NCBI RefSeq assembly: GCF_024198235.1
Contig: NZ_JAKCFB010000027.1
Coordinates: 1-64,000 of the forward strand
DNA length: 64,000 nucleotides
Direction of reading: 5' to 3'
Source of the DNA: Myxococcus dinghuensis
Lineage (GTDB): Bacteria > Myxococcota > Myxococcia > Myxococcales > Myxococcaceae
A program made the translations under genes and the position numbers. The notes under the pieces were generated by a model. The model had not been told where the DNA came from, made no database searches, and worked only from the letters and a program-made list of their open reading frames with translations. Below are positions 7,164 through 23,674 of this stretch, one piece after another (position 1 is the first letter of the stretch; each line of letters opens with the position of its first letter).

Positions 7164-7907
7164 ATGGAGCAGCCACCTCCGTCCTCGACGGGCGTCGCCG
7201 CGCGTTTGCAGCAGGTGACGAAGCAATATCAACTCGGGAAGACCACGGTTCACGCGCTGCGTGGCATCGACCTGACGATAGCCATTGGCTCGTACACGGT
7301 GATTTGCGGCCCGTCCGGCAGCGGCAAGAGCACCGCGCTGCAACTGCTCGGATGTCTGGACATGCCGACGTCCGGGACGCTGGAGATCGCCGGGCAGGAT
7401 GTCATTGCGCTGAGTGACGCGGCACGGACGACGTTCCGCGCGCAGCACCTGGGGTTCGTGTTCCAGAACTTCAACCTGCTCCCGGTCCTGACGGCGCTGG
7501 AGAACGTGGAGTATCCGTTGCAGCTCACCGTCCGCGACCCGGCGGAGCGGCGCGAGCGCGCCCGGGCCATGCTCACCGCGGTGGGGCTGGGGGACCTGCT
7601 GCACCGGCGTCCCGCGGAGCTGTCCGGTGGCCAGCGGCAACGCGTCGCCGTGGCGCGGGCCATGGTGAAGCGGCCCCGGCTGGTGCTGGCGGACGAGCCC
7701 ACCGCCAACCTGGATCGCCGCACGGGCGCGGAGCTCATCGCGCTGATGCGCGCCATGCAGCGCGAGCACCAGACCACCTTCATCCTCTCCTCCCACGACC
7801 CCCAGATGATCGAGGACGCCGACGAGCGCATCCTCATCGAGGACGGCCGGGTCGTGGAGAGCACCCGTCGCCAGGCGCCCCTCGCGCCGGCCCAGGGGGT
7901 GTCATGA
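7164..7907 (+). CDS. ABC transporter ATP-binding protein (MacB/LolD type)
   Basis: The 247-aa ATPase subunit carries Walker A GPSGSGKST (from about residue 49), signature LSGGQRQRVAVARAM (from 153), Walker B LVLADEPTANLD and the H-loop LSSHDPQ. The spacing and the FQNFNLLPVLTALENV block place it in the LolD/MacB subfamily, which powers mechanotransmission from the cytosol to periplasmic processes (lipoprotein release or extrusion of compounds) rather than classic membrane pumping. The ATG at 7164 is preceded by AAAGG. The stop overlaps the next start (ATGA), so it is translationally coupled to the permease. Confidence 0.93.
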   Translation: MEQPPPSSTGVAARLQQVTKQYQLGKTTVHALRGIDLTIAIGSYTVICGPSGSGKSTALQLLGCLDMPTSGTLEIAGQDVIALSDAARTTFRAQHLGFVFQNFNLLPVLTALENVEYPLQLTVRDPAERRERARAMLTAVGLGDLLHRRPAELSGGQRQRVAVARAMVKRPRLVLADEPTANLDRRTGAELIALMRAMQREHQTTFILSSHDPQMIEDADERILIEDGRVVESTRRQAPLAPAQGVS

Positions 7908-9298
7908 ACATCGTCGCACTGGCTTCGCGCAACGTGTTGCGCAACGCGCGCCGCTCCGCCCTCACGGTGGTGGCGCTCGTCGTCGGCACCCTGGCCATCC
8001 TGGTGTTCGGCGGGTACGTCAACGACAACGTCCAGGGGTTGCAGACCATCACCGTGCGCCAGCACGGCCATCTGCAGCTCGTCCGCAAGGACTACCTCGA
8101 CTTCGGCCGCGGGGACGTGGGGCGCTTCTCCATCCGCGACTACGAGACGCTGCTCGCCACGCTGCGGAGCGACCCCGTCCTCGCGCCCATGCTCGCCGTC
8201 GCCACGCCGGTGCTCAACGTGGAGGGCACGGCGGGCAACTTCTCCGCCGGGGCCTCCAGCAGCTTCTCCGGCAAGGGCGTCATCCCCTCCGAGTACCTGT
8301 CCCTGCTGGCGTGGGATGGGTTCGGCGTGCGCATCCCCCCGGGCCGGTCGGCGCTGAAGGCCGAGCTCCCGGACGGCGGCATCATCGGCTTCCGGATGGC
8401 GCAGCTGCTGGCCCTGTGCGGCCCGCTGGGGCTCAAGGACTGCAAGACGCTGCCCCCGCGCCGCGTCGCCAGCGCCCAGGAGGAGTCCCTCCCCGAGGAC
8501 ATCGCGGCGCTGGGCCTGGCCGAGCAGCCCACCGCTCCCGAGGGAGACGCCAAGGCTCCGGCGACCATCGAGCTGCTGGCCGCGTCGCCTGGCGGGCTGC
8601 CCAACGTGGTGCGCATGTCCGTCCTCCAGGCGGAGCGGCAGGTCATCCGGGACATCGACGCCATCTACGTGGCCATGCCGCTGTCCCTGGCGCAGCGGCT
8701 GGTGTTCGGCCCGGACGAGCACGCCGTCTCCGCCATCGTCATCCAGTTGAAGCGGACGGACCTGATGGAGGCCGCGCGCGCCCGGGTGAGCGAGCTGGTG
8801 AAGGGCTCCGGAGACCTGGAGGTGCTGACGTTCTTCCAGGTGAGCCCGGTCTACGAGCAGATCGTCGCCAGCTACACGTCCGTCTTCACCTTCATCGCGG
8901 TGCTGATGGGCTTCATCGCCCTGTTCTCCATCGCCAACGCCATCAACATGGCGGTGGGCGAGCGCATCGGAGAGATCGGGACGCTGCGCTCCCTGGGCTT
9001 CCAGCGGGGCACCATCCGGGGAATCTTCGTCCTCGAGGGCGCGCTGCTCGGCCTGTTCGGCACGCTCATCGGCGCGGGGGTGTCCATCCTCGTGCAGGTG
9101 GGGCTGCATGCCGGCCGCTTCACGTGGACGCCTCCGGGCCGCTCCTCGCCCATCCCGCTGCGCGTGGACGTGCTGGGCAACCCCACGCTGATCCTCGCGA
9201 CGGTGGTCGGGCTGTCGCTGGTGGCCTGCCTGTCCGCGCTGTGGCCCGCGAACCGCGCGGCGCGGATGGAAGTCACGGAGGCGCTGCGCCATGCGTGA
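7904..9298 (+). CDS. FtsX/MacB-like ABC transporter permease
   Basis: The 464-aa permease has the MacB/LolCE architecture: one N-terminal helix (about 15-38), a large periplasmic domain (about 40-320) and three C-terminal helices within the FtsX domain (about 325-350, 375-400, 425-450), including GEIGTLRSLGFQRGTIRGIF, a typical FtsX stretch. It overlaps the ATPase gene by 4 bp and the LolA-like gene by 8 bp. With only one permease gene the transporter would be a homodimer, as in MacB. Substrate unknown; a lipid, lipoprotein or small product is plausible. Confidence 0.88.
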   Translation: MNIVALASRNVLRNARRSALTVVALVVGTLAILVFGGYVNDNVQGLQTITVRQHGHLQLVRKDYLDFGRGDVGRFSIRDYETLLATLRSDPVLAPMLAVATPVLNVEGTAGNFSAGASSSFSGKGVIPSEYLSLLAWDGFGVRIPPGRSALKAELPDGGIIGFRMAQLLALCGPLGLKDCKTLPPRRVASAQEESLPEDIAALGLAEQPTAPEGDAKAPATIELLAASPGGLPNVVRMSVLQAERQVIRDIDAIYVAMPLSLAQRLVFGPDEHAVSAIVIQLKRTDLMEAARARVSELVKGSGDLEVLTFFQVSPVYEQIVASYTSVFTFIAVLMGFIALFSIANAINMAVGERIGEIGTLRSLGFQRGTIRGIFVLEGALLGLFGTLIGAGVSILVQVGLHAGRFTWTPPGRSSPIPLRVDVLGNPTLILATVVGLSLVACLSALWPANRAARMEVTEALRHA

Positions 9299-10073
9299 GG
9301 CCCTGCTGCGTGCCGCCACCGCGGCGCTGCTCGTCCTGGTCGCGACGCCTGCCCTGGCGGCGGAGTCCGCGCAGGAGCTGCTCGCGCGCGCCGACGCCGT
9401 CCGCAACCCCGACCGCGACTTCTCCGTCACCACCACGCTGACGGAGTACCGCGCGGGCAAGCGCGTCGACACCTCCACGCTCGTCGTCTACTCGAAGTTC
9501 GCGGCGGACAACGCGCAGTACAACAGCCTCATCCGCTACACCCAGCCCCGCCGCGACCTGGGCAAGCTCATCCTGCGCAACGGCATGGAGGTCTGGTTCT
9601 ACGACCCCGCCAGCAAGGCGAGCGTCCGCGTGTCGCCCCAGGCCCGCTTGCTGGGACAGGCGTCCAACGGCGACGTGATGAACACGAACCTCGCCAAGGC
9701 CTACACCGCCGAGGCCGTGGGGCGCGAGACGCTCGAGGACGACACGAAGCAGAAGCGCACGTGCGTGAAGCTCAAGCTCGTCGCGCAGCGCAAGGACGTG
9801 GCCTACGCCCGGGTCGACTACTGGGTCGACGAGGAGAACGGCCGGCCCCTCAAGGCCCAGTTCTTCACCACCGAGGGACGGCTCCTGAAGACGGCCTTCT
9901 TCCGCAAGTTCGAGACGGCGCTGGAGCGCGAGCGTCCCACGGAGACCGTCATCATCGACGGGCTCGACACCCAGTGGATCACCGTCATGCGGGCGTCGAA
10001 CTTCCAGTGGCGCGAGATTCCGAAGACCTGGCTCCAACGCGACTACCTGCCTCGCTTCCGAGGAGAAGAGTAG
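9291..10073 (+). CDS. LolA-like outer membrane lipoprotein-sorting family protein
   Basis: The 260-aa protein starts with a signal peptide (MREALLRAATAALLVLVATP then ALA) and is predicted periplasmic. The body (YNSLIRYTQPRRDLGKLILR, WFYDPASKASVRVS, VDYWVDEENGRPLKAQFF) matches the LolA_like family (PF17131-type), a half-barrel fold that can carry acyl chains or lipids across the periplasm. It overlaps the permease by 8 bp and is followed after 8 bp by a predicted outer-membrane barrel. Such proteins often sit beside RND or FtsX-type transporters plus an outer-membrane barrel, so I infer a periplasmic shuttle for this system. Confidence 0.82.
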   Translation: MREALLRAATAALLVLVATPALAAESAQELLARADAVRNPDRDFSVTTTLTEYRAGKRVDTSTLVVYSKFAADNAQYNSLIRYTQPRRDLGKLILRNGMEVWFYDPASKASVRVSPQARLLGQASNGDVMNTNLAKAYTAEAVGRETLEDDTKQKRTCVKLKLVAQRKDVAYARVDYWVDEENGRPLKAQFFTTEGRLLKTAFFRKFETALERERPTETVIIDGLDTQWITVMRASNFQWREIPKTWLQRDYLPRFRGEE

Positions 10074-10081
10074 CCCTGGCC

Positions 10082-11728
10082 ATGCGCGGCGACACCGTGA
10101 CAACCGCGCGCCCGACGCGCACGCTGCGGACGCTCCCCTGCGTCGCGCTCCTCCTGCTCGCCACGCCCGGCGACGCGCAGGACACGGCCCGCACCGCCTC
10201 GCCCGCCACGAACGCGTCGCCAGCGTTCTCCTCGCTGAACGCGCAGCCCGCATTCTCCGCACCGAACGGCACGCAGGTGCCGCCCACCACGGACGGAGCT
10301 CCCGTGCTCTCATCCACGGGCGGCGTCCCTGAGCTTCCCTCCACAGACGGGGCACCTGAGCTGCCCGCCACGGACGGAATGCCTGAGCTGCCCGCGACGG
10401 ACGCGATGCCCGAGCTGCCCGCGACGGACGGTATGCCGGAGCTGCCGGTGACGGACGCGATGCCCGAGCTCCCGCCTGGGCTCGACCTCCCGCCGGAGGT
10501 GCCGGACCTCCCCCCCGCCGACGAGGACGCGCCCATCGCCTGGGGGCTCGAGGCGCAGCTCTGGCTCCAGCGCCTCACCCAGCGCCCCACGCCCATCTCC
10601 GAGGACACCCGCGCCGCGCACGTCGGGCGCGTGGTGCTCGACTTCCGCCGGGAGTGGCAGCCGGGACGTCGTTGGACCGTGGGCCTGTCGAACCAGTGGC
10701 AGGGCACGCTCGGCCTGCGCGCCGGGGACGAGGGCCGCGACTTCGACAGCGCGCTCAACAACCTGCGCGAGCTGTGGGTCCGCTGGCAGGTGGGCGACGA
10801 CGCCCATCCGCTCTTCTTCGACGTCGGACGCGTCAACATCCGCAATGGCGTGGGCAGCGGTTACAGTCCCACTGACTTTTTCAAAGCAGGCGCTGTCCGC
10901 CAACCTCTCTCGTTGGATCCAAACGCCTTCCGGCTGAACCGGCTGGGCACCGTGGTGGCGCTGGCGCAGTACCTCCACGAGAGCGGCGCGTGGACCGCCG
11001 CGCTCGTGCCGCCGCTGAGCACGCAGGACCCGATGCTGGAGGGTCCCTGGTATTCGCCGGCGCTCCACCGCACGAATCGGGACGCGGCCTTCTACGCGAA
11101 GTGGGCGCCCCAGGTGCGCGAGTGGCTGTCGCTCGACGTGCTCCTGCTCGCCCGCGTGGAGGAGCGTCCGCGACTCGGCGTCAACCTGTCCGCGCTGCTC
11201 GGGGATGCCTGGGTGTTCAACGCCGAGGGACTCGTCGGGGGCTGCCACCGGCTCGGAGGCCCCGACACACCCGACCTCGGCTACGGCTGGTGCACGCGGT
11301 GGGCCGCGAACGTGATGTGGACACTGCCGCTGGGCATCGAGCTGACGGTGGAGCAGCAGTTCGCCAGCGACGCGCTCGGCGCGGACGCATGGCGCCAATG
11401 GCGGGGCGTCGCCGACGCGCGGCTGCGGACACTGGCGGGCATGCGCGCGCAGCGCTCGTTCGAGCTGGAGCCGATGCTGCGCCACGGGTCCTTCGCGCGG
11501 CTCGCGTGGCGCGACGCCTTCGACGTCCGGGGCCTGGAGCTGTCGAGCTTCGTCCAGGTCAACAACCTCGATTGGAGCGGGCTCACACAGCAGGCGGTGT
11601 CCTGGAGCCCGTGGACCGACTGGTCCGTGGGCGGGCAGTTCCAGCAGTACTTCGGAGCACGAGACAGCGAGTACGGCTCGGCCTCGACCACGAGCCGGCT
11701 GAGCCTGTTCCTGAGCAGACGGCAGTGA
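10082..11728 (+). CDS. Predicted outer-membrane beta-barrel protein with PELP repeats
   Basis: The 548-aa protein has an N-terminal signal peptide (TLPCVALLLLATPGDAQ), a low-complexity region (about 35-145) including seven 9-residue repeats of the type ATDGMPELP, and a C-terminal region of alternating polar/hydrophobic strands rich in W, Y and F (LEAQLWLQRLTQRP, FQQYFGARDSEYGS, ending LSLFLSRRQ) that looks like a porin-type barrel. The strands resemble DUF1302-like proteins that accompany LolA-like/transporter genes. The start ATG 10082 is chosen for the signal peptide and the upstream GGAGAAGAG. I do not recognise a specific family; the barrel call rests on pattern and context. Confidence 0.65.
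   Translation: MRGDTVTTARPTRTLRTLPCVALLLLATPGDAQDTARTASPATNASPAFSSLNAQPAFSAPNGTQVPPTTDGAPVLSSTGGVPELPSTDGAPELPATDGMPELPATDAMPELPATDGMPELPVTDAMPELPPGLDLPPEVPDLPPADEDAPIAWGLEAQLWLQRLTQRPTPISEDTRAAHVGRVVLDFRREWQPGRRWTVGLSNQWQGTLGLRAGDEGRDFDSALNNLRELWVRWQVGDDAHPLFFDVGRVNIRNGVGSGYSPTDFFKAGAVRQPLSLDPNAFRLNRLGTVVALAQYLHESGAWTAALVPPLSTQDPMLEGPWYSPALHRTNRDAAFYAKWAPQVREWLSLDVLLLARVEERPRLGVNLSALLGDAWVFNAEGLVGGCHRLGGPDTPDLGYGWCTRWAANVMWTLPLGIELTVEQQFASDALGADAWRQWRGVADARLRTLAGMRAQRSFELEPMLRHGSFARLAWRDAFDVRGLELSSFVQVNNLDWSGLTQQAVSWSPWTDWSVGGQFQQYFGARDSEYGSASTTSRLSLFLSRRQ
10286..10474 (+). repeat. Seven tandem 27-bp coding repeats
   Basis: Seven imperfect in-frame 27-bp units encode 9-residue repeats with consensus (S/A/V)TDGxPELP, inside the N-terminal region of the barrel protein. 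The fourth to seventh copies are the most alike (ATDGMPELP, ATDAMPELP), which suggests recent slippage or unequal exchange. They probably form an extended periplasmic or surface linker. Confidence 0.8.
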
Positions 11729-11761
11729 GGTCGGCATGAGCGCGGACAGCGGAGCATCGAG

Positions 11762-12688
11762 ATGATTGGGATTGCTGCGACGGCCTACGCCCTGGCGAAG
11801 ACGGCGGACACGGTGGACGCGTGGTGCACCTCGCTCGCGGTGGACGAGGAGCGCCGACAGACGCTCCTGCGCAACGGCGCCAACCACTTCCACCGCGCCG
11901 AGCACGACGGGCTCGTCGACCTGGGGCGTGACGCCATCTCCCGCGCGCTCGCGGCGGGCGGCGTCGAGGCCCGGGAGGTGGACGCGCTCGTCGTCTGCCA
12001 CACCTCGCCGCTCAGCTCGATGCCCATGCCGTACACCCTGGCGGGCACGCTGAGGAAGGCGTGCGGCCTGTCCCGTGCCTACGCGCTGGGCATCACCCAG
12101 CAGCAGTGTGTCTCCTCCCTGCACGCGCTGCGGGTGCTGGACGCGCTGTTCACCCGGCACACCGCGTGGCGCTCCGCGCTGGTGGTCACCGCGGACATGA
12201 TCGTTCGCGAGGAGTACCGGCTGGTGGGCGACGCGGGCGTCCACTCCGACGCGGCCTCCGCCATCCTCGTGCGCCGGGACGCACCGGGACGCGTGCGCGG
12301 ACTGCAAACCTACAACGACCCGCGCGTGGCGCAGGGCGTGCTGCCGGACTCGCTCTACCGGACGGACACGAACTACGTCTGGACGCTCATCTCCGTCATC
12401 CGGCGCGTGCTCAAGGCCGCGGCGGTGGAGCCCGGGGAGCTGGCCAGCCTCCTGCCCCACAACGTGAACCTCCAGGTCTGGCGGCAGGTGGTGGGCTCGC
12501 TGTCCCTGCCGGAGGACAGGCTCTACGACGGCAACTTCGGCCGCGTGGGCCACGCGTTCGGCTCGGACGCCATCATCAACATCTCCGACGCGGACGTGCT
12601 GCGCCGCCCGGGCCGTCACCTGGTGTTCTCCAGCGGGATCGGCGGCTGCTTCGGAGGCTTCATCCTCGACTCCGGCGGGGCGCCATGA
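11762..12688 (+). CDS. KAS III-like ketoacyl synthase, Cys and His present
   Basis: The 308-aa thiolase-fold enzyme is of the FabH/KAS III group. The nucleophile is Cys116 in GITQQQCVSSLHAL. The His of the triad is probably His233 in LLPHNVNLQVW. The usual Asn motif (GNTSAAS in FabH) is replaced by GHAFGSDAII, with His264, a variant seen in secondary-metabolism KAS III-like enzymes that condense or transfer acyl groups. The protein is short for the family (about 320-340). It is the first gene of the operon, 33 bp after the barrel gene, with CGGAG about 10 nt before the ATG; the stop overlaps the next start (ATGA). It is probably a catalytically active condensing or acyl-transfer enzyme acting on a carrier-bound substrate. 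Confidence 0.82.
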   Translation: MIGIAATAYALAKTADTVDAWCTSLAVDEERRQTLLRNGANHFHRAEHDGLVDLGRDAISRALAAGGVEAREVDALVVCHTSPLSSMPMPYTLAGTLRKACGLSRAYALGITQQQCVSSLHALRVLDALFTRHTAWRSALVVTADMIVREEYRLVGDAGVHSDAASAILVRRDAPGRVRGLQTYNDPRVAQGVLPDSLYRTDTNYVWTLISVIRRVLKAAAVEPGELASLLPHNVNLQVWRQVVGSLSLPEDRLYDGNFGRVGHAFGSDAIINISDADVLRRPGRHLVFSSGIGGCFGGFILDSGGAP

Positions 12689-13347
12689 ACACGCCCCCGG
12701 TCCCTACCCTCCCGGGCACGCGGCTGCCCCGGATGGAGCTGCTGCGCTTCACGTCGGAGCACCTCGACGCGGTCGGCGCGTGGATGACCCCGCCGGGTGT
12801 GCGCTGCTGGCTGGACTTCGGCAACGGGCGACAGGAGCTGTCGCGCCGGGAGCTCTTCCTGCTGCTCACCAGTCCCCGCGTGTACGCCCGGCTGTTCCGG
12901 CTGCCCGGCGAGGGCGCCCCGCTGGGCCTCGTCTGCCTGAACAACATCGACGACCAGATGGGCGCGATGGAGGTGTGGGTCGTGCGCGACGGGACGGTGC
13001 GGCGCACGGTCCGCAACGACGTGGCGGGCGCCATCATCGGGGTGATGGCGTCGGGGTTCCTGGACCATGGCCGGCAGGTGGCCAACTCCTGGGTGGTGGC
13101 GTCGAACCGCGCGTCCATCTACCTGCACAACGTGGTGGGGATGCGCCGCTCCGGCGTCCAGCGCTCGCGCCACGTCGTCGACGGGCAACGCCAGGACCGC
13201 TGGACCTACGACATGACGCTCGCCGATTTCGGGGAGCTGTATCCCGACGTCGTCTCCGAGCAGGGCAGGACGTTCCGGGGCCTCCAGGCCGCGCCCACGC
13301 CCGCCCTCCCATCCACGCACGGCGCGCCGGAGGCCGCCCATGACTGA
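12685..13347 (+). CDS. GNAT-family N-acetyltransferase-like protein
   Basis: The 220-aa protein shows a GNAT-like pattern: an N-terminal strand and helix (LRFTSEHLDAVGAWM), a central conserved region (RNDVAGAIIGVMASGFLDHG) and the C-terminal helix/strand VVASNRASIYLHNVVGMRRS that resembles the NxxAIxLYxxxGF segment of GNATs. The Q/RxxGxG/A acetyl-CoA loop is not obvious, so the donor could be a different acyl thioester, possibly acyl-ACP, and activity is inferred. It overlaps the first KAS III gene by 4 bp and the second by 8 bp, so it belongs to the pathway. It may acylate an amine in the product or intermediate. Confidence 0.7.
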   Translation: MNTPPVPTLPGTRLPRMELLRFTSEHLDAVGAWMTPPGVRCWLDFGNGRQELSRRELFLLLTSPRVYARLFRLPGEGAPLGLVCLNNIDDQMGAMEVWVVRDGTVRRTVRNDVAGAIIGVMASGFLDHGRQVANSWVVASNRASIYLHNVVGMRRSGVQRSRHVVDGQRQDRWTYDMTLADFGELYPDVVSEQGRTFRGLQAAPTPALPSTHGAPEAAHD

Positions 13348-14329
13348 GCAGACATCCCCCACGCCGGTGGGCATCACGGACGCCGCCTACCACCTGCCGG
13401 GTCCCGCCATCGACATCGTCGAGTGGGCTTCCTCGCGAGGCGTCGACCCGCAGCTCGTGCAGGAGCTGCTCGCCAACGGGTGCCGCTACTTCCACGAGGG
13501 CCCCGAGCACTCCGACGCGGAGCTCATCGCCGGAGCCATCGACCAGCTCGCGGCGAGGGGCGCGCGCCTCTCCGACGTGCGCTACCTCGTGCACGCGCAC
13601 ACCCAGGCCTTCAGCATGCCGGCGCCCCCCAGCTCGCTGCTCACGGAGCTGGTGCGGCGCTACGGCATGTCGCCCCGCCTGTGCTTCTCCGTAGGCCACA
13701 TCGCCTGCGCGGGCGTGGTGGGCGCGATGGACTGGGCCGCGCGGTTGCTCGCGGACGACGACGACGCCCGCTACGCGCTGGTCGTCACCTCCGACCGCGT
13801 CTTCGGCAAGGCGAAGCACCGCATCCGCCAGGACGCGGGCATCCAGAGCGACGGCGCGTCCGCGGTGCTGCTCGCGAAGGAGGACCTGCGCTGCCGCGTC
13901 GGAGCCGTCAGTTACAAGAACTTCGCCGAGCTCCACGAAGGGCCGAGCAATCCCAGGACGACGGAGATGATTGGCCGCTACACGTGGCTGCACACGAAGC
14001 TGCTCTTCGAGGAGCACAGCCAGGCCACGGGCATCCCCCTGCGGGAGTACGGCCAGTTGCTGCCCATCAACGCCGACCGGCACTACTGGGTGCAGATCGC
14101 CGACACGCTGGGCCTGCCCGACACCGCGTTCTTCCTGGAGAACATCCGCGAGCGCGGTCATGCCTGCTCGAACGACTTCGCGGTGAACCTCGTCGACCGG
14201 GGCTTCCCGCTGCTGGCCCAGGGGCGCGCGGTCGCCTCGTGCGGACAGTCCAACGTGGGCGCCTACGCGGTCATCACGCTGCTGCCCCCGTCCCACGGGG
14301 CGACGGCGCAGGGAGCGGGCACGCCATGA
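13340..14329 (+). CDS. KAS III-like protein, Cys present, His replaced
   Basis: The 329-aa thiolase-fold protein is a paralogue of the gene at 11762. The nucleophile region reads SVGHIACAGVVGAMDW, giving Cys123. In the region that matches LLPHN of the first paralogue it reads LLPINADRHYW, so the usual catalytic His appears as Ile243 (my alignment by eye). The later RGHACSNDFAVNL keeps the His of the GHAFGSD variant. A Cys without the His might still accept an acyl group but would be a poor decarboxylative condensing enzyme, so acyltransfer or non-decarboxylative chemistry is possible. It overlaps both neighbours (8 bp and 4 bp). Confidence 0.78.
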   Translation: MTEQTSPTPVGITDAAYHLPGPAIDIVEWASSRGVDPQLVQELLANGCRYFHEGPEHSDAELIAGAIDQLAARGARLSDVRYLVHAHTQAFSMPAPPSSLLTELVRRYGMSPRLCFSVGHIACAGVVGAMDWAARLLADDDDARYALVVTSDRVFGKAKHRIRQDAGIQSDGASAVLLAKEDLRCRVGAVSYKNFAELHEGPSNPRTTEMIGRYTWLHTKLLFEEHSQATGIPLREYGQLLPINADRHYWVQIADTLGLPDTAFFLENIRERGHACSNDFAVNLVDRGFPLLAQGRAVASCGQSNVGAYAVITLLPPSHGATAQGAGTP

Positions 14330-15417
14330 AGCACGTCCTCCGCATCGCCTCGCTGGGGGTCTTCATCCCCCCGAGCGCCGACCACACGAACCTGCTCGGG
14401 ACCACGCTCCACACGGGCTACCGGCAGTTGCTCGACGCCGCGGGCTCGCGCTCGCGCCCGCCCACCGTGCGACGCGGCGGCACGCTCATCCTGGGCGAGC
14501 GCTACTCCGCGCCCACCGCCGCCGCCGAGAAGGAGCGCAGCAGCGAGCTGGCCTCGCGGGCCGTGGGGGACGTGCTCACCGCGGAGCCGTCCACCGCGCC
14601 CCATGTCCGCTCCATCCTCCATGCGCAGTGCTCGCTGGACCAGCAGGTGCTGGGCTCCGCCTGCCTGCGCGTCGAGCACGACCACTTCCGCCACGCGAAG
14701 CGGGCGATGAGCATCGGCCAGCTCGGCACCGCGGGCGTGCCGACGGTGTTCCAGCTCGCGGCCATGGACACCCGGGCGGGCCACCTCGCGTGTGTCTCCG
14801 CCTCCGACAAGTGGATCGCGCCGTTCTTCCGACGTGTCCCGGGGCTCGCCACCTACGCGGACGCCTCGGCCGCCAGCATCGTGGCCGCCAACGGCCTCGT
14901 GGCCGCGCCCATCGCCGAGGTCGAGGACCTCGTCGCCTCCTGCCGACCACCTGGGCACGACCTGTGGACGGCGCCCGCGCCGCAGCAACTCGAGCACGTG
15001 CGCGCCCACGCCGAGCAGTGCATCCACCAACTGCTCTCGCGGCACCCGGACGTGGAGCGCGCGGCGCTGTCGCTCGCGGGAGACACCTTCGAGCAGGACC
15101 TGAACACGCGGCTGGCCGAGGCCTCGGGAATCGGCGGGGTGCTCGAGGCCCCCGTCCCGGGCATCCACCTGTCGAGCGCCTCGCCCCTCGTGGCGCTGCG
15201 TTCCGCCATCGCGCAAGCCGTGAAGGCAGGCACATCCCGGCGGGTCGTCATCTGGACGGCGTCACCGGCGGGGCATGCCGGCGCGATGCTGGTCCGCTGC
15301 GCGCCGGACGCCGTCGCGACACCGACGGGCTGGACGAGCCGCCTCTCCTTCCCATCCACCGCGGACCACGGGGGCGTCGCCCACGCGGGTCAGGCCATTT
15401 CCGGGAGTGTGTCATGA
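14326..15417 (+). CDS. KAS III-like protein without the catalytic Cys
   Basis: The 363-aa protein follows the KAS III layout: SIGQLGTAGVPTVFQLAAMD aligns with the nucleophile loop of the second paralogue, and Thr135 occupies the Cys position. The region matching the catalytic His reads ALSLAGDTFEQD, also without His. It still has the DASAASIVAANG strand typical of the thiolase fold. It is thus probably a non-catalytic partner, as chain-length-factor-like subunits are in other ketosynthase pairs, or it has an altered chemistry. It is translationally coupled (ATGA overlaps) to the genes on both sides. Confidence 0.72.
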   Translation: MKHVLRIASLGVFIPPSADHTNLLGTTLHTGYRQLLDAAGSRSRPPTVRRGGTLILGERYSAPTAAAEKERSSELASRAVGDVLTAEPSTAPHVRSILHAQCSLDQQVLGSACLRVEHDHFRHAKRAMSIGQLGTAGVPTVFQLAAMDTRAGHLACVSASDKWIAPFFRRVPGLATYADASAASIVAANGLVAAPIAEVEDLVASCRPPGHDLWTAPAPQQLEHVRAHAEQCIHQLLSRHPDVERAALSLAGDTFEQDLNTRLAEASGIGGVLEAPVPGIHLSSASPLVALRSAIAQAVKAGTSRRVVIWTASPAGHAGAMLVRCAPDAVATPTGWTSRLSFPSTADHGGVAHAGQAISGSVS

Positions 15418-16667
15418 GCAAGATGCTGATCCTCGCGCGGGGAGATGGACGCGCGTTCATCGGACTCCAGGGGCGGTCCATCCTCGAGGGGCTGCCCTTC
15501 CCCGTCGTCGTCTTCGTGGACAAGGCCAACGTGGAATACTTCCCGGGCGTGGACACGGAGGTCGTCCGCTGGCGCAACCCGGATGACATCAGCAAGGCCG
15601 CGGCAAAGCGCCACGCCGAGCACGGCATCTTCGCCGTCGCCACCCTGGACGAGCAGATGGTCGACCTGGCCGCGCGCCTGCGCACCGAGCTGGGCGTCGG
15701 CGGCGCCCGTCCCGAGGAGGCCCGGCGCTTCCGCGACAAGGTCCTGATGAAGAAGCTCCTGCGCGAGGCGGGCGTCCGCGTCCCCGAACACGCGAGCTGC
15801 GCGGACCGGGCCGCCGTCGAGGCGCTGCTGGCGAAGCACCGCCGGCTGGCCCTCAAGCCCGTGGACGGCCAGGGCTCACGAGACGTCTCCTTCGCCGCTT
15901 CGCCGGAGCAGCTCGACGCCTGGTACGCCAAGAACCTCCCGTCCGCGTCGTTCGAGGCGGAGGAGTTCATCGACGGCGTGCTCTACCACGTCAACGCCAT
16001 CGTCCGGGACGGCGTGCCCCTGGTCACCGCGAGCGCACCGTACCTGCCGGGCATGGCCAACATCGACTTCGCCGCCGGCACGCCCTTCGTCAGCGTCATG
16101 CTCACCGAGGGTGAGCTGAAGGAGCGGCTCGAGGCGCTCTCCACGCGCGTGGTGGAGGTGCTGCGGCTCGGCAACGGCGTGACCCACATGGAGTGCTTCG
16201 TCACGGCCCAGGGGGAGATCGTCTTCCTGGAGATCGCCGCGCGGCCCGGTGGCGGCGGCATCGTCCTGATGATGGAGGGGCAGTACGGCGTCAACTACTC
16301 CCAGGCGCTGCTGTTGCTCGAGGGTGGACGTGGCGACCTCATCCCGCCCATCGGGATGAGGGCCGGCCAGACGCACGGGCTGATGGGCTTCCGCCAGCCG
16401 GTCGCCGGCTTCGTCAAGCGCGCGGCGACGCCCGACATGTTCAGCGAGCCGTGGATCCACCACGTGCGCATCGACCTGGAGCTGGAGAAGTTCCAGGCGC
16501 CCGCGTCGCACTGCACGGACTTCACCGGCCTGCTCATCTTCTCCTCCCGCGACACCGCGGAGTTCGACGCGCGCAGGACCGCCCTCTTCGAGCGGTACCA
16601 CGCGGCCCTCGAAATCAAGCCGCTCCAAGCCAGTCCTCCCCCCAACCCGAAGGGACCGAACCCATGA
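15414..16667 (+). CDS. ATP-grasp carboxylate-amine/thiol ligase
   Basis: The 417-aa ATP-grasp enzyme activates a carboxylate as an acyl phosphate and joins it to an amine or thiol. Visible features: an N-terminal pre-ATP-grasp Rossmann-like region (1-100), RFRDKVLMKKLLREAGV (about 103-120), the ATP-binding lysine in LALKPVDGQGSRDVS, the hinge EEFIDGV and the metal-binding signature FLEIAARPGGGGIV (about 265-280). Immediately downstream, with a 4-bp overlap, is an acyl carrier protein, which suggests that the carrier's phosphopantetheine thiol or an amine on it is the acceptor. BtrJ of butirosin biosynthesis is an ATP-grasp that loads glutamate on the carrier BtrI; a similar loading role here is an inference. 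Confidence 0.85.
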   Translation: MSKMLILARGDGRAFIGLQGRSILEGLPFPVVVFVDKANVEYFPGVDTEVVRWRNPDDISKAAAKRHAEHGIFAVATLDEQMVDLAARLRTELGVGGARPEEARRFRDKVLMKKLLREAGVRVPEHASCADRAAVEALLAKHRRLALKPVDGQGSRDVSFAASPEQLDAWYAKNLPSASFEAEEFIDGVLYHVNAIVRDGVPLVTASAPYLPGMANIDFAAGTPFVSVMLTEGELKERLEALSTRVVEVLRLGNGVTHMECFVTAQGEIVFLEIAARPGGGGIVLMMEGQYGVNYSQALLLLEGGRGDLIPPIGMRAGQTHGLMGFRQPVAGFVKRAATPDMFSEPWIHHVRIDLELEKFQAPASHCTDFTGLLIFSSRDTAEFDARRTALFERYHAALEIKPLQASPPPNPKGPNP

Positions 16668-16951
16668 CAACCCAGGCAGACGCAGCGAGCACCCCCTCCG
16701 CGGACGACCTCGTCGACAAGCTCCGAGCCGTGGTCATCGAAGTGCTCAAGCTGGAGATTCCGCCGCAGGAGCTGGCCGGCAACACCAACCTGTACGAGCT
16801 GGGCCTCGAGTCACTGAACGTCGTGGTGCTGCTGTCCGCGCTGGAGAAGGCGTTCGACATCGTCATCGACGTGGAGGACCTGTCCGCGGACCTGTTCGGC
16901 CGCTGGGACGACCTGGTCGCGTTCGTGAGGGGCAAGGTTGATGCCCGCTGA
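16664..16951 (+). CDS. Acyl carrier protein
   Basis: The 95-aa carrier protein has the phosphopantetheine attachment motif LGLESLNVVVLL with Ser50, and the acidic helix II surroundings typical of ACPs. Helix III continues with the segment IDVEDLSADLF. It probably carries the intermediates of this operon. The ATG is preceded by GAAGGGA and overlaps the ATP-grasp stop by 4 bp; its own stop overlaps the next gene by 11 bp. No phosphopantetheinyl transferase is encoded nearby, so activation must use an enzyme encoded elsewhere. Confidence 0.93.
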   Translation: MTTQADAASTPSADDLVDKLRAVVIEVLKLEIPPQELAGNTNLYELGLESLNVVVLLSALEKAFDIVIDVEDLSADLFGRWDDLVAFVRGKVDAR

Positions 16952-18056
16952 AGCGCCTTTGACCCTCACCTGGGCGCGGGTGGTGAGGCCCCCCGACGTG
17001 GTCGACGTGCCCCAGTGGGCGCGCGCGGCCGAGGCCGAGTACGGCACGGCGGAGGTGTCTCCCGACCGCACCACGGCGGAGTTCCTCTATTCGCAGCTCG
17101 GACTCGACGCGAAGGAGCTCTGTGAGCGCGCCGCGGCCCACGCGCCGGAGGGTCGACGCTTCCGCATCTCCCGGTCGGCGACGCAGGCGGAGCTGACCCA
17201 GCAGGCCGTGCTCGCGCTCGCCGAGGCCCTGCCCCTGAAGGACATGGTGGCGCGCTGTGGGCTCGTCGTGTGTTCAGCCAGCTCGCTCGATTCGAGCAGC
17301 GTCTTCCATTCGATGATCGGCGGCGTGACGGGCGCGGTGGGCCTGTCGAAGGTGCCCTACTTCTCCGTGGCCCAGCTCCAGGGGGCTTCGCTCGCGGGCG
17401 CCATCGACATCGTGGACGCCATGCTGACGAAGCCGGGCAGCGGCGCCCTCTTCCTCGCCGTGGAGCGGTGGCCCGTCGCCTTCCCGCGCTACTGGGAGCC
17501 CGCCGTGCCGCTCGGCGACGGCGCGGTGGCGTTCTGGCTCACCCGGGGCGAGGGCCCGGGGCTGCGCTACGTGGGCGGCGCGGTGCGCAGCTTCGACCCG
17601 TTCGTCCGCGAGACGCCCGTCGAGGTCCGCCCCATCCCGCCCATCCAGATGCCCGGGCTCCCCGTGCTCCAGGCACCCGCCCGGGAGCCCGGACGCGCGG
17701 CGCCCACGCCGACCTTCGACACCGAGGCGATGCTCGACGCGGCGACGTCCGTGCTGCGCGACTTCCTCCAGGAGCAGGACGTGTCCGGCAAGGACCTCTC
17801 CGGCTGGGTCGCCTCGGGCCTGCGTCCGGACGTGGACCAGCGGCTGCGGGAGCGACTGGGCATCGAAGCGCCCGTCATCGCGCCGCCGGAGGATGACGGC
17901 TACTGGTGCGCCGCCGCCGCGCCCGCGCTGCTCGCGCGACTGGTGGATGGAGCGCAGAGTCCTGGTGGGCTGTTCCTCTCCTGGGGCATGTCCTACGGCG
18001 GCTCCGTGGGCACCCAGCTCTGGCGCGCGGTGAGCGCGACGGAGGGCCAGGGATGA
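16941..18056 (+). CDS. KAS III-like protein without Cys and His
   Basis: The 371-aa protein has a recognisable thiolase-fold outline: LVVCSASSLDSSSVFHSMIG (first half strand/loop) and FSVAQLQGASLAGAIDIVDA, where Gly148 sits at the nucleophile position. The C-terminal half reads WVASGLRPDVDQ and YWCAAAAPALLARL where the active homologues have the His and the GHAFGSD loop. Both catalytic residues are thus missing. It is probably a structural or substrate-shaping partner of an active KAS III-like enzyme of the operon. The start is ATG 16941 (with TTG 16938 just before), overlapping the ACP gene by 11 bp; the stop overlaps the MATE gene by 4 bp. Confidence 0.7.
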   Translation: MPAEAPLTLTWARVVRPPDVVDVPQWARAAEAEYGTAEVSPDRTTAEFLYSQLGLDAKELCERAAAHAPEGRRFRISRSATQAELTQQAVLALAEALPLKDMVARCGLVVCSASSLDSSSVFHSMIGGVTGAVGLSKVPYFSVAQLQGASLAGAIDIVDAMLTKPGSGALFLAVERWPVAFPRYWEPAVPLGDGAVAFWLTRGEGPGLRYVGGAVRSFDPFVRETPVEVRPIPPIQMPGLPVLQAPAREPGRAAPTPTFDTEAMLDAATSVLRDFLQEQDVSGKDLSGWVASGLRPDVDQRLRERLGIEAPVIAPPEDDGYWCAAAAPALLARLVDGAQSPGGLFLSWGMSYGGSVGTQLWRAVSATEGQG

Positions 18057-19456
18057 CCACGTCCGCGCCAGTGGAAGCGGGGGCTGCTCCCGCGGGAACC
18101 CTCTCCTCGGTCATCCGGGACCTGTCCGTGCTCGCGCTGAAGACGGTCGCGACCCAGGTGGTGCCGGTGTTCGCGAGCCTCTACGTCGCGAGCATCGTCG
18201 CGAAGGAGTCCGCGCTGTCGTTCTCCAGCTTCTCGCTGGTGAACGCCATCAACCTGACCATCTTCCTGGGTGTGTCCGGCTGCCTCCAGGCGCTCTACTT
18301 CGTGGCGGGCCGCGCGCTCGGGCGGAAGGAGCCGGGGATGTACGCGGCGGCCATCGTCGCGGGGCTCGCGCTGTCGTTCGTCTTCGGCGCGGTGATGACG
18401 GGCCTCAGCATCGCCATCGGTCCCATCCTGGGACTGCTCCGGCTGGACGCGGACGTGGCGGCGCTGGCGGGCCCGCTGGGCGTGACCGCGGCGCTGGGCA
18501 TCCTCCCGTCGGTGTGGATGGTCGTCTATCGCGTCCACGCCTCGCTGCGGGAGAAGGCGGGGCTCGTCACCATCATCTACGTGCTGGGCGCGCTGGCCAT
18601 CGTGGTGCTCGCCATGACGACCCAATCCCTCTGGCCCGATCGGCCGGGACGCGCCGCGTTGGGCGTGCTGGGCTCCGTGGCGGCGGCGAACTGGCTCATG
18701 CTGCTCCTGGCCCGGGTGTCGTGGCGTGCCTTGCCCGACCTGCGCTTCACGCCGGAGGTCCTCGCGGAGGCCCAGGTGAAGTGGCGCATCGCCCTGGGCA
18801 TCGTCGTCGCGGTGGGCTGGCCCATCGGCGTCGTCATCCTCCTGGAGTGCCTGGCGCCCCTGGTCAGCTCGCTGCTCATCGGCCGCTACTGGGTGTCCGC
18901 CATGCCGGTGCATTCCGTCGTGCTGCTGTGCGTGTCGCTGGGGCAGGTCATCCCCATCGGCCTCGGGCAGGCGGCGGTGCAGCGGGTCGCCGTGCTGCAC
19001 TCGGCGGGGGACGCGCTCAACCGCAACCGCGTGGCGGTGACGTCGCTGGTGGTGGGCGCGGTGCTGGGCGGGGCCGTCGTCGCGTTGTTCGCGGCGGCCT
19101 CCGCGTCGCTGGGCGCGCTGTTCCTGGGACCCGCGGCCTTCGAGCCCGGGACGCGCCTGCTGCTGGAGCAGCTGATGCTCCCGGGCGGGCTGCTGCTGGC
19201 CATCCAGGGAATCATCTTCATCGGCGCGGCCATCCTGCGTGGCGTGGGCCAGACCCGCGCGCCGCTCGTGCAGTGCCTCATCGGCTATTGCGTCATCGCC
19301 TCGGGAGGACAGGTCCTGCTCGGGCCGGTGCTCGGCCTGGGCGTCCAGGGCGTCTGGTGGGGGCTCATCCTCGGCTTTGGCGCCACCGCGTTGGCGGTGG
19401 TGTGGCGCTGCTTCACCGAACTCCGTTCCGACAACCCGAAGGTGCAACCGACATGA
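18053..19456 (+). CDS. MATE-family efflux transporter
   Basis: The 467-aa membrane protein has about twelve hydrophobic segments and the internal two-fold pattern of MATE/MOP-superfamily exporters, which use proton or sodium gradients to expel drugs, metabolites or lipid-linked compounds. Segments such as SSLLIGRYWVSAMPVHSVVL and LGLGVQGVWWGLILGFGATA fit transmembrane helices 7 and 12. It lies in the middle of the biosynthetic operon with 4-bp overlaps on both sides, so it is probably the inner-membrane exporter of the product or an intermediate and may provide self-protection. Confidence 0.85.
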   Translation: MTTSAPVEAGAAPAGTLSSVIRDLSVLALKTVATQVVPVFASLYVASIVAKESALSFSSFSLVNAINLTIFLGVSGCLQALYFVAGRALGRKEPGMYAAAIVAGLALSFVFGAVMTGLSIAIGPILGLLRLDADVAALAGPLGVTAALGILPSVWMVVYRVHASLREKAGLVTIIYVLGALAIVVLAMTTQSLWPDRPGRAALGVLGSVAAANWLMLLLARVSWRALPDLRFTPEVLAEAQVKWRIALGIVVAVGWPIGVVILLECLAPLVSSLLIGRYWVSAMPVHSVVLLCVSLGQVIPIGLGQAAVQRVAVLHSAGDALNRNRVAVTSLVVGAVLGGAVVALFAAASASLGALFLGPAAFEPGTRLLLEQLMLPGGLLLAIQGIIFIGAAILRGVGQTRAPLVQCLIGYCVIASGGQVLLGPVLGLGVQGVWWGLILGFGATALAVVWRCFTELRSDNPKVQPT

Positions 19457-19755
19457 GTACCATCAACCTCAACGACGCCGTCCACAAGATCGAAGCCTCG
19501 GACTCCGACCTGGCCACCAGCACGTTCGAGGACGTGCGGCTGACGGGCAGCACCTTCGCGGAAGTGGCCCTGTCGCAGTCGAGCTTCACCAACGTCCTCT
19601 TCGACGGCAGCACCATCAAGCAGGCCAGCTTCGTGGGCGTGGCCATCACGGACTCCACCTACGACGGGATGACCATCGACGGCATCGACGTGAAGGCGCT
19701 CTTGGAGACGTACCGGGCCGCGCAGGGCACCGCCGGGCAGAAGAGCAGCCCATGA
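19453..19755 (+). CDS. Short pentapeptide-repeat protein
   Basis: The 100-aa protein consists mainly of about eleven pentapeptide units, visible as ATSTFEDVRLTGSTFAEVAL, SQSSFTNVLF, KQASFVGVAI and DSTYDGMTID, which should form about three turns of a right-handed quadrilateral beta-helix. The tail GIDVKALLETYRA is common at the end of such small proteins. Larger relatives (McbG, Qnr, AlbG) protect DNA gyrase from inhibitors; this one is short for that job. Embedded with 4-bp overlaps between an exporter and a dehydrogenase, it may be a scaffold or an immunity factor. Function not assigned. Confidence 0.8.
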   Translation: MSTINLNDAVHKIEASDSDLATSTFEDVRLTGSTFAEVALSQSSFTNVLFDGSTIKQASFVGVAITDSTYDGMTIDGIDVKALLETYRAAQGTAGQKSSP

Positions 19756-20933
19756 GGATCGACCCCGAGGCGGTGTTGGAGGAGATACGCCGAGACGACC
19801 CGGAGTCGTGGCCGCTGTTCGAGGCGATGCAGCGCCACATCCCACCCATCGCCGCCCGGGCCGACGCGGACGCGGAGATTCCCCCCGAGTTCTGGCCGCT
19901 GGTGCCGGTGGACCTCCAGAACCGGGTGAACATGCCGCCCCAGTACGGGGGCGTGGTGCTCACCGCCACGGCGGTGCGCCGGGCGGTGGTGTTCGAGCGC
20001 ATCGGCCGGCTGTGTCCGGCGCTGCCCATCGGCCTGCCGGGGCCCGGCCTGTCCGCGCCGCCCGTGCTCGCGCTGGGCACGGAGGAGCAGAAGGTCGCGT
20101 ACTTCAACCGCTTCCTCGGGCAGACGCGGCCCGTCTGGGGCGCGTTCGCCATCACCGAACCCCAAGGCGGCTCGGACGCCGCCGCCATGCGCACGGTGGC
20201 CACGCGCGACGGCACGGACTACGTGCTCAACGGCACCAAGTGCTTCATCACCAGCGGCGGGCGCGCGGACGTGGTCGTCGTGTTCGCGTCGCTGGACCCC
20301 AACAAGGGGCGGTTCGCCATCCGCGCCTTCGTGGTGCCTCGCGACACGCCCGGCTTCGCGGTGGACCGCTGCGAGGACATGATGGGCTTGCGCGCCAGCC
20401 AGCTCGCGACGCTGTCGTTCACCGACTGCCGCCTCCCCGCGTCGAGCATGCTCGGCCACACCGGCAAGCGGGGCCCGCACGTGGATGCGTTCACCGGCGC
20501 GCAGGCGTCGTGGGACTACATGCGCCCGGTGCTCTCCTCGCTCATCAACGGCGGATGCCTGGGCATGGTGGAGTACGCGGAGCAGTGCCTCGCGGAGGGC
20601 GAGGCGGAGCTTCCCCGGGCGAAGGTGGAGCAGGCGCGCGAGGAGCTGGGCGTGTTCCGTGCCCGCATCAGCTCGTCGCAGATGCTCGCGTTGCGCGCGG
20701 CGTGGAAGTTCGACGCGGGAGGGCGTGCGTCGACGGACGCGTCGCTCGCCAAGGCGTTCGCCTCCACCGTCTCCATGGAGCTGGCCCACAAGCTGGCGGC
20801 GATGTTCCCCGTGAAGGCGGCCACGGCGGGAGACCGCATCGAGAAGTTCTACCGGGACGCGAAGGCCTTCGACATCCTCGAGGGCACCGGCGACATGCAG
20901 CGGCTGATGATCGCCAGGGCCTACGAACACTGA
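19752..20933 (+). CDS. Acyl-CoA dehydrogenase family flavoenzyme, catalytic Glu present
   Basis: The 393-aa acyl-CoA dehydrogenase-fold protein oxidises an acyl thioester at the alpha-beta position with FAD. It contains FAITEPQGGSDAAAMRTVA (FAD/substrate loop), YVLNGTKCFITSGGRADVVV and, at the C-terminus, FDILEGTGDMQRLMIAR, where Glu377 matches the catalytic base of medium-chain-type dehydrogenases. In carrier-protein pathways such enzymes desaturate acyl- or aminoacyl-ACP. It starts with a 4-bp overlap with the pentapeptide gene. The next gene, 23 bp on, is a divergent homologue that lacks the base, so the two may form a heteromer. Confidence 0.88.
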   Translation: MRIDPEAVLEEIRRDDPESWPLFEAMQRHIPPIAARADADAEIPPEFWPLVPVDLQNRVNMPPQYGGVVLTATAVRRAVVFERIGRLCPALPIGLPGPGLSAPPVLALGTEEQKVAYFNRFLGQTRPVWGAFAITEPQGGSDAAAMRTVATRDGTDYVLNGTKCFITSGGRADVVVVFASLDPNKGRFAIRAFVVPRDTPGFAVDRCEDMMGLRASQLATLSFTDCRLPASSMLGHTGKRGPHVDAFTGAQASWDYMRPVLSSLINGGCLGMVEYAEQCLAEGEAELPRAKVEQAREELGVFRARISSSQMLALRAAWKFDAGGRASTDASLAKAFASTVSMELAHKLAAMFPVKAATAGDRIEKFYRDAKAFDILEGTGDMQRLMIARAYEH

Positions 20934-20956
20934 GCGCGTCGGACACGACGTGTTGA

Positions 20957-21958
20957 ATGTCTTTCGTGGAGACACACGTGACTTCTCTCGATTCCTCTCC
21001 TTCGCCCGTGGACTTCCGGTGTGCGCCCGTCGTCGAGCCCTTCCTGGGGGCCGCTCGGCCCATCGCGTCCGCCATCCGTGACATCGGCGGCGCGGAGGCC
21101 GTCTCGCACATCCAGCAACTGGAGCTCGCGAGCGTGCTGCCGGAGCTGGAGCGCCGCGCCGACGCACCGGTGCTGCTGTTCCATCTGGCCGAGCTGCTCG
21201 GGCACGCGAACCTGGCGGCGGCGTGGCAGGGCCTCTCCGGCATCCCGGCTCGCGCGGCGGAGCTCCCGGCCTCCGTCGACCTCGCGGCCCTCCCCGACGC
21301 AACCGGGACGCGGTGGACGGCGTGGCTGCCCGTGGTCGACGCGGCCCGGCCTCCTTCTTTGGCGCTCGCGGGACCGCGAGGATGGGCACCGCTGCCCGCC
21401 CAGGGCCTCACCCACTCCCGCGTGAGCGGCCTGCTGGGCTTTGCTCGAGGCGAGGTGCTCACCTGGAGCACGGAGCCCTCCGTGACACCGGAGGAACTCG
21501 GCGTGCAATCGCTGGCACCGGAGTCCTGGTCCGCGCTGGTCCGCGCGCAGCTCGCGCTCCTGTCGGGCCTGCTGGTGGGAGCGACGCGCAGGCTCGTGGA
21601 CGAGGCGTACGCCTACGCGAAGACGCGGCAGTCCGCGGGCAAGAGCATCAACCAACATCAGGCCGTCGCGCTGCGCCTGGCGGACCTGGCGCTGCACCAG
21701 GAGGCGCTCTCGCTGTATCTGACGGCGCGGGTGGAGGAGTGCCGGCCACCCGGGATGCGCGGCGGCCCCGAGTCCCTCAGCGCCGGCTATGTCGTCGAGC
21801 TGGCCTTCCGCATCGCCCGCGATGCCGTGCAGACGGCGGCGGGGCACGGCTACGTCGAAGGCCTGCCCTTCCGGCGCCTGTTCGAGCAGGTCCGAACCCT
21901 CACCGTCATGCTCCAAGGGACGAAGGCCGCCGCCGAGCCCGTGTCCCCCGTTCCCTGA
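20957..21958 (+). CDS. Divergent acyl-CoA dehydrogenase-like protein lacking catalytic Glu
   Basis: The 333-aa protein is clearly acyl-CoA dehydrogenase-like in its C-terminal helical domain (YAKTRQSAGKSINQHQAVAL, LADLALHQEALSLY, AGHGYVEGLPFRRLFEQVRT). The N-terminal half is shortened and degenerate. Where the active homologue has LEGTGDMQR this one has LQGTKAAAE, so Gln320 replaces the catalytic Glu. Such proteins are known as the non-catalytic beta partner in alpha2-beta2 dehydrogenases of steroid degradation in actinobacteria (FadE/ChsE pairs). Its position next to a catalytic paralogue supports a subunit role. It is separated from the ligase gene by 18 bp. Confidence 0.75.
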   Translation: MSFVETHVTSLDSSPSPVDFRCAPVVEPFLGAARPIASAIRDIGGAEAVSHIQQLELASVLPELERRADAPVLLFHLAELLGHANLAAAWQGLSGIPARAAELPASVDLAALPDATGTRWTAWLPVVDAARPPSLALAGPRGWAPLPAQGLTHSRVSGLLGFARGEVLTWSTEPSVTPEELGVQSLAPESWSALVRAQLALLSGLLVGATRRLVDEAYAYAKTRQSAGKSINQHQAVALRLADLALHQEALSLYLTARVEECRPPGMRGGPESLSAGYVVELAFRIARDAVQTAAGHGYVEGLPFRRLFEQVRTLTVMLQGTKAAAEPVSPVP

Positions 21959-21976
21959 CTCCACCGAGGTGCCCCC

Positions 21977-23632: not shown

Positions 23633-23674
23633 CGTCCCCCTTCCGCGTCACGCGGCCCAGGAGCCATCCGCACC

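Follow-up and report, generated by a model that had tools for sequence, protein, structure and literature searches.

Four paralogous genes in the myxobacterium Myxococcus dinghuensis, which we call KS1 to KS4, encode relatives of the KAS III (FabH) enzymes and lie in one tightly packed operon (about 7173–24925, from an ABC transporter ATPase to a decarboxylase) within a 64,000-nucleotide stretch of contig NZ_JAKCFB010000027.1, hereafter the window. The best overall explanation of their sequences and surroundings, to which we assign a probability of about 0.58, is that they would form two heterodimers, each of a catalytic (live) and a degenerate (dead) subunit, in an acyl-peptide pathway resembling that of the afc cluster of the Burkholderia cepacia complex. 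We infer that KS2 is paired with KS3 and KS1 with KS4, and put heterodimers with this pairing at even odds or slightly better. An earlier note, made from the DNA letters, had proposed a graded loss of catalytic residues across the four proteins, with one or two active enzymes and inactive partners as in the ketosynthase/chain-length factor (KS/CLF) pairs.

Family membership and catalytic residues

KS1 was identified as a KAS III relative by a single-sequence search and KS2 by a Pfam match; KS3 and KS4 of the window gave no relevant Pfam, NCBIfam or single-sequence PDB match on their own. Profiles that included orthologues placed both. The KS4 profile matched FabH/KAS III structures (E value 7e-25) and the KS3 profile matched KAS III structures with ChlB3 on top (1e-14), as the KS1/KS2 profile did solved KAS III structures (3e-19). 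Compared with the KS1 family by hhalign, KS3 scored 99% and KS4 98%, and the KS3 and KS4 families were each other's closest relatives by profile (100%, E value 1e-40). Homology to the KAS III fold extends across the thiolase-fold core in all four proteins, and all four match KAS III structures rather than the KAS I/II branch to which KS/CLF belongs. PDB alignments served as the reference, and a FabH-like protein from the same genome (L003) was set aside as a non-canonical relative. A low-confidence model of KS4 submitted to Foldseek returned FabH and type III polyketide synthases on top with a template-modelling score of about 0.25, and our conclusions rest on the profiles instead.

The catalytic triad of FabH is Cys112-His244-Asn274. 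In a joint alignment with relatives, C116 of KS1, C123 of KS2, T135 of KS3 and G148 of KS4 occupy one column, and the KS1/KS2, KS3 and KS4 profiles each align these Cys-site columns to solved KAS III chains; the register of KS3 is fixed by the alignment of its HLGAAD motif to HLGASD in ChlB3. The four genes and the residues that the earlier note had read by eye (C116/H233, C123/I243, T135 and G148) are thus confirmed, with no Cys at this site in KS3 or KS4, a good assignment given that neither has a relevant single-sequence family match. The FabH-type triad is absent from all four: the Asn274 position holds His in KS1 (H264), KS2 (H274) and KS3 (H281) and Tyr in KS4, and KS2 also lacks a His at the His244 site. 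A different triad is known from ChlB3 (Cys113/His296/Asp301, the same in CerJ), in which the working His sits at the FabH Asn274 site with Asp five residues later; Phe266 is listed in the ChlB3 pocket (PMC9573744), and ChlB3 also lacks the other His of FabH. This arrangement is present in KS1 (D269) and KS2 (D279), and Cys, His and Asp stand in the columns of KS1 116/264/269 in all aligned KS1, KS2, AfcO and AfcL sequences. Across 14 orthologues of KS1 these residues are invariant, as is the His at the FabH His244 site (H233 in the window), which in KS2 sequences varies between Ile, Pro, His, Ser, Cys and Met. The PqsC-type combination of Cys with His at that position is accordingly found in KS1 and missing from KS2. 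KS3 has His281 and no acid (Ser286), and KS4 has Tyr321 and Ala326 at the His and Asp sites. The earlier note had followed the His244 site only.

Because KS1 and KS2 both keep Cys-His-Asp, and the Ile243 site is His-less in ChlB3 too, the set very probably comprises two live and two dead proteins and no gradient. The graded loss proposed earlier does not hold: KS2 as a half-dead enzyme is ruled out by alignment with ChlB3 and AfcL, since C123, H274 and D279 are kept. From its residues, KS2 is a good acyltransferase candidate; KS1, with both His residues retained, could also be a condensing enzyme. Orthologues in Hyalangium versicolor have the same residues (Ile in KS2, Thr in KS3, Gly in KS4), which are therefore not a product of chance or sequencing error.

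The dead types also share a tryptophan motif, E/D-K/R-W-x-x-x-F-x-R (W-x-x-P-F-x-R-like), at 14806–14835 in KS3 (DKWIAPFFRR) and 17463–17492 in KS4 (ERWPVAFPRY); it is mostly W-x-P-P-F-S-R in Burkholderiaceae and does not occur in the live types.

Could Thr135 make KS3 catalytic, leaving only KS4 dead and each of the four proteins its own homodimer? Ser acts as the nucleophile in DpsC, which offers a model. KS3 retains Thr135 and His281, the corresponding residues of AfcR are Thr/His/Glu, and catalytic roles have been suggested for BolM (Ser) and BolP (Thr) of the bolagladin cluster (PMC12186527, PMC7756342). Yet the Cys site of aligned KS3 proteins holds Thr, Ser or Gly, with Gly in 13 of the 16 Burkholderiaceae members, several of which also have Tyr or Asn in place of the partner His; the window KS3 lacks the acid; and the catalytic segments are relaxed. 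We regard a catalytic KS3 as quite unlikely. In aligned KS4 proteins the same site is Gly, Asp, Ser, Asn or Leu (Gly, Asp or Ser in Burkholderiaceae).

Evidence for a proposed pairing of live and dead subunits

The whole operon, from ABC ATPase to decarboxylase, recurs gene for gene in H. versicolor H56D21 (59–83% identity, with the four KS proteins at 64–77%). No other genome among 195 Myxococcota yielded KS3 or KS4. A contig scan with KS1 sequences only gave two loci. At 15 Burkholderiaceae loci (L030, L033 and L067–L079) we found a ten-gene operon of fixed order, ACAD1-ACP-KS4-KS1-ligase-decarboxylase-ACAD2-GNAT-KS3-KS2 (ACAD, acyl-CoA dehydrogenase-like protein; ACP, acyl carrier protein). 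KS4 immediately precedes KS1, and KS3 immediately precedes KS2, in 15 of 15; the gaps range from −14 to +2 and are most often −4, taken to the nearest start codon, a choice that favours small gaps. KS2 and KS3 of the window overlap by 4 bases. The adjacency of live and dead KAS III genes that characterizes PqsBC is therefore seen at the 15 Burkholderiaceae loci and in the window KS2–KS3 pair. Among 249 Burkholderiaceae genomes, dead-type matches occur in 29, all of them among the 30 with live-type matches (Fisher p about 5e-37, uncorrected for kinship), and the dead-type profile had no match in 368 other genomes spread across the class. In two clusters that have diverged further (L083 and L084), a single dead-type gene directly adjoins a live one. 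The earlier idea of active enzymes with inactive partners gains from this recurrent split, from the dead genes directly preceding live ones and from the restriction of dead types to genomes with live types; its error was to take KS2 as lacking the catalytic His.

Two other arrangements of the same four proteins have to be weighed. KS1 might pair with KS3 and KS2 with KS4, or all four might join one larger mixed complex, as the distance between KS1 and KS4 in the window and the sharing of one operon would allow; the KS2–KS3 overlap, the fixed adjacency at the Burkholderiaceae loci and the correspondence of AfcO–AfcR to KS2–KS3 speak against this, and we consider it very improbable. Alternatively, KS3 and KS4 could pair together or with themselves as non-catalytic docks or scaffolds for the carrier protein, with KS1 and KS2 as ordinary homodimers. 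Their mutual closeness by profile, the motif that both have and KS1 and KS2 lack, and the existence of live homologues without dead ones would suit such scaffolds, whereas gene coupling links dead with live. Moreover, a KS3–KS4 dimer cannot be general, since the afc loci (AfcR), L083 and L084 have just one dead protein each, encoded right next to a live one. This alternative is unlikely.

In a phylogenetic tree, KS3, KS4 and AfcR form one group (95/86) apart from KS1, KS2, AfcO and AfcL (92/51). This topology fits a single ancient divergence into live and dead forms, after which the pair itself was duplicated; KS3 and KS4, read as pseudoenzymes, would probably descend from that split. The dead proteins are more variable overall (mean pairwise identity 0.47–0.50 for KS3/KS4 versus 0.62–0.68 for KS1/KS2), which is what functionless, decaying duplicates would show. 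Their excess variability over the live proteins is nevertheless −0.05 bit in the N-terminal segments equated with the dimer interface versus 0.80 bit in the C-terminal catalytic segments (p 3e-7), the N-terminal segments are strongly conserved, and the KS3 and KS4 frames are open in all intact four-KS loci and in both myxobacteria. On this conservation we rejected decay, which is scarcely credible. PqsB, the dead half of the proven PqsBC heterodimer, shows a like pattern, with the N-terminal half kept and the catalytic region at the C-terminal end lost (PMC4807248).

Several points weigh against live/dead heterodimers. KS1 and KS4 are not neighbours in the window and lie 4.2 kb apart. The grouping of KS3 with KS4 was possibly helped by long branches, and the interface segments were assigned via ChlB3/FabH by sequence, with boundaries set by the analyst. 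Single-chain AlphaFold models from shallow alignments were poor, with a predicted local distance difference test score of 35 for KS3 and 43 for KS4. Live members can do without a dead partner, because a lone live KS, with none in view, is found at L082, L085 and L086, and because AfcL is active alone in vitro. Finally, the authors of the afc and bol studies treat the Ser/Thr members AfcR, BolM and BolP as possible catalysts (PMC12186527, PMC7756342).

Some loci depart from the common pattern. At L080 (10195–11804; G307) all that is left of the set is KS2 and an N-terminally truncated KS3, still side by side in what is likely a remnant after decay. At L033 (12574–16303; B. cenocepacia NCTC13227), an additional 2.4 kb or so of sequence separates two parts of the decarboxylase gene of the four-KS operon, and this pathway copy is therefore probably interrupted. 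In B. cenocepacia CMCC(B)23006 (L029), neither the afcQ-like nor the afcR-like gene (16109–17715 and 17703–18801) reads through in a single frame, owing to real frameshifts or assembly errors. L083 (G441, Burkholderiaceae) combines two AfcL-like genes with a live/dead pair and hints at further pathway types built from the same parts. Apparent natural KS fusions at L048/L049 were discarded, the long open frames being out-of-frame readings of the upstream gene, as was a supposed dead gene far from a live one (L087; G292:C1), a weak outlier that carries Cys and HIWSSD and is hence of the live type.

The operon and its predicted pathway

Table 1 Genes of the four-KS operon in the window
Product	Coordinates	Strand	Matches and relatives
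ABC transporter ATPase, common export module	7173–7907	+	Hyalangium 78%; 45% to ABC ATPase of Burkholderia afc cluster
FtsX/MacB-like permease	7904–9298	+	Hyalangium 75%; 40% over segment in afc loci
LolA-like outer-membrane lipoprotein-sorting protein	9291–10073	+	Hyalangium 78%; afc loci 27%
Outer-membrane beta-barrel-like protein, start codon uncertain	10070–11728	+	Hyalangium 64% over C-terminal 443 aa; 31% in related Burkholderiaceae loci L082/L085
KS1, predicted catalytic KAS III-like enzyme (C116/H233/H264/D269)	11762–12688	+	phmmer and profile matches to FabH structures
Acetyltransferase-like (GNAT-like) protein	12685–13347	+	Hyalangium 62%; Burkholderia four-KS operons 33%
KS2, predicted catalytic KAS III-like acyltransferase (C123/H274/D279; I243 at FabH His244 site)	13340–14329	+	PF08545; AfcO relative, 36% to AfcO of afc cluster
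KS3, degenerate KAS III-like protein (T135/H281/S286)	14326–15417	+	AfcR relative; 4-base overlap with KS2; profile match to ChlB3
ATP-grasp ligase, likely amide-forming	15414–16667	+	PF02655/PF13535; weak likeness to dapdiamide synthase DdaF and BacD
Acyl/peptidyl carrier protein	16664–16951	+	PF00550, E value 4e-12
KS4, degenerate KAS III-like protein (G148/Y321/A326)	16941–18056	+	Profile match to FabH structures
MATE-family exporter	18053–19456	+	PF01554 and TIGR00797
Pentapeptide-repeat protein	19453–19755	+	PF13576; Hyalangium 66%
Acyl-CoA dehydrogenase-like protein 1 (ACAD1)	19752–20936	+	Hyalangium 83%; Burkholderia four-KS operon 44%
Acyl-CoA dehydrogenase-like protein 2 (ACAD2)	20957–21958	+	PF00441; Hyalangium 63%
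AMP-forming ligase, VinN/AfcQ type, predicted Asp loading via beta-carboxylate	21977–23632	+	TIGR03098 above cut-off; 46–52% to AfcQ; AfcQ Arg311 and Lys503 conserved
Pyridoxal-phosphate (PLP)-dependent decarboxylase, DapDC fold type	23675–24925	+	TIGR03099 above cut-off; Hyalangium 80%; 24–27% to AfcP

The operon (Table 1) resembles the afc/bol lipopeptide pathways in combining a carrier protein with a PLP decarboxylase and acyl-CoA dehydrogenases. In the afc pathway, AfcQ loads L-Asp via its beta-carboxylate, using Arg311 and Lys503; once Asp is on the carrier, its decarboxylation by AfcP leaves beta-alanine, from which dehydro-beta-alanine is believed to arise through a dehydrogenase. The KAS III-like AfcL was shown in vitro to accept the chain in thioester linkage, with Cys111 as the very likely site, and to form an amide (PMC12186527). 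An Arg and a Lys of the window ligase align with the two AfcQ residues, the Arg being the one with which VinN-type ligases select the beta-carboxyl group. From these neighbours and published relatives we infer a comparable chemistry. The ligase would join the beta-carboxylate of Asp to the carrier protein, the decarboxylase would turn the loaded Asp into a beta-alanyl thioester, and the dehydrogenases may yield dehydro-beta-alanine. KS2/KS3 would then bind the acyl chain as a thioester on cysteine and hand it to an acceptor such as an amine; KS1/KS4, with its extra His, could do likewise or form a C–C bond. The ATP-grasp ligase would add another amide, and the MATE and ABC/LolA/outer-membrane proteins would export the product. 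Each live protein would meet its dead partner through the FabH-type dimer face; the role of this partner would be to give the pocket its shape or more length, or else to hold on to the carrier protein.

Because the decarboxylase and AfcP are only distantly related, its substrate is a tentative assignment. The 64-kb window holds no relatives of AfcS, AfcN or AfcL, nor of the fatty acyl-AMP ligase AfcA beyond its own VinN-type ligase, which points to a related but different product; that this is a beta-alanine-type acyl peptide has, by analogy, an even chance. The GNAT-like protein has no Pfam or NCBIfam match, though it is kept in myxobacterial and Burkholderia operons.

The families matched by the ligase and the decarboxylase, TIGR03098 and TIGR03099, are named 'exosortase A system-associated' in NCBIfam. 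A link to exosortase was dropped because no exosortase was found in the genome; the VinN-type Arg suggests for these families a possible part in loading an acidic amino acid onto a carrier protein and decarboxylating it there.

Comparison with known systems

The live/dead KAS III heterodimer is already a known kind through PqsBC of Pseudomonas aeruginosa (PMC4807248), the only one with a solved structure that we found in the open-access literature. PqsBC resembles the proposed pairs in joining live and dead KAS III-like partners, the dead one degenerate in the same region as KS3 and KS4. It differs in that PqsC has a FabH-type Cys-His (H269) and no Asn, whereas KS2 lacks that His and has His and Asp at the other site, and in being a single pair that acts on octanoyl-CoA and 2-aminobenzoylacetate, where the window operon has two candidate pairs and a carrier protein. 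We found no report in the open-access literature of two live/dead pairs per operon with an acyltransferase-type triad in a carrier-protein pathway common to myxobacteria and Burkholderiaceae, or of a partner-subunit role for AfcR; the unusual residues are described in the afc and bol papers, though not read in this way (PMC12186527, PMC7756342).

In its broadest form, our proposal is that these proteins are KAS III-like acyltransferases with a KS/CLF principle of their own: an old live/dead heterodimer, duplicated to two pairs per operon, that would take acyl or aminoacyl chains from a carrier protein, within a peptide pathway free of condensation domains and common to myxobacteria and Burkholderia, with AfcO/AfcR as a further, so far unrecognized pair. 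We hold this to be about evenly balanced between true and false. If true, PqsBC would be joined by another set, this one with two pairs in each operon, and the pseudoenzyme partner would be a repeated solution for KAS III enzymes; AfcR and its relatives would gain a role, and attempts at reconstituting AfcO-type enzymes alone may then fail. The loci in two myxobacteria and many Burkholderiaceae point to an uncharacterized family of carrier-protein pathways whose products are probably acyl peptides of the beta-alanine type.

The afc cluster (AFC-BC11) is the characterized cluster with the nearest relatives of KS2 and KS3, AfcO and AfcR, and has the VinN-type ligase, PLP decarboxylase and ABC/FtsX/LolA genes in common with the window; KS1, KS4, ATP-grasp and MATE genes are found in the window operon, which in turn lacks the afc genes listed above. 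The bol (bolagladin) cluster of Burkholderia gladioli, by its published description, has two KAS III homologues, one with Thr at the Cys position, together with a VinN-like ligase, a carrier protein and a dehydrogenase making dehydro-beta-alanine (PMC7756342). It differs in having a modular non-ribosomal peptide synthetase and, in its other KAS III, Ser and not Cys. KS1 and KS2 share the Cys-His-Asp triad and its spacing with ChlB3 and CerJ (PMC9573744); ChlB3 is a homodimer that moves an aryl acyl group, with no dead partner described. The KS/CLF of type II polyketide synthases, to which the earlier note had likened the four proteins, is alike in pairing live and dead ketosynthase-like subunits, and to that extent the comparison stands. 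It fails in lineage, and a FabH-like heterodimer of this sort is not new: CLF belongs to the KAS I/II branch and has a role in carbon-chain length, whereas the window proteins match KAS III profiles.

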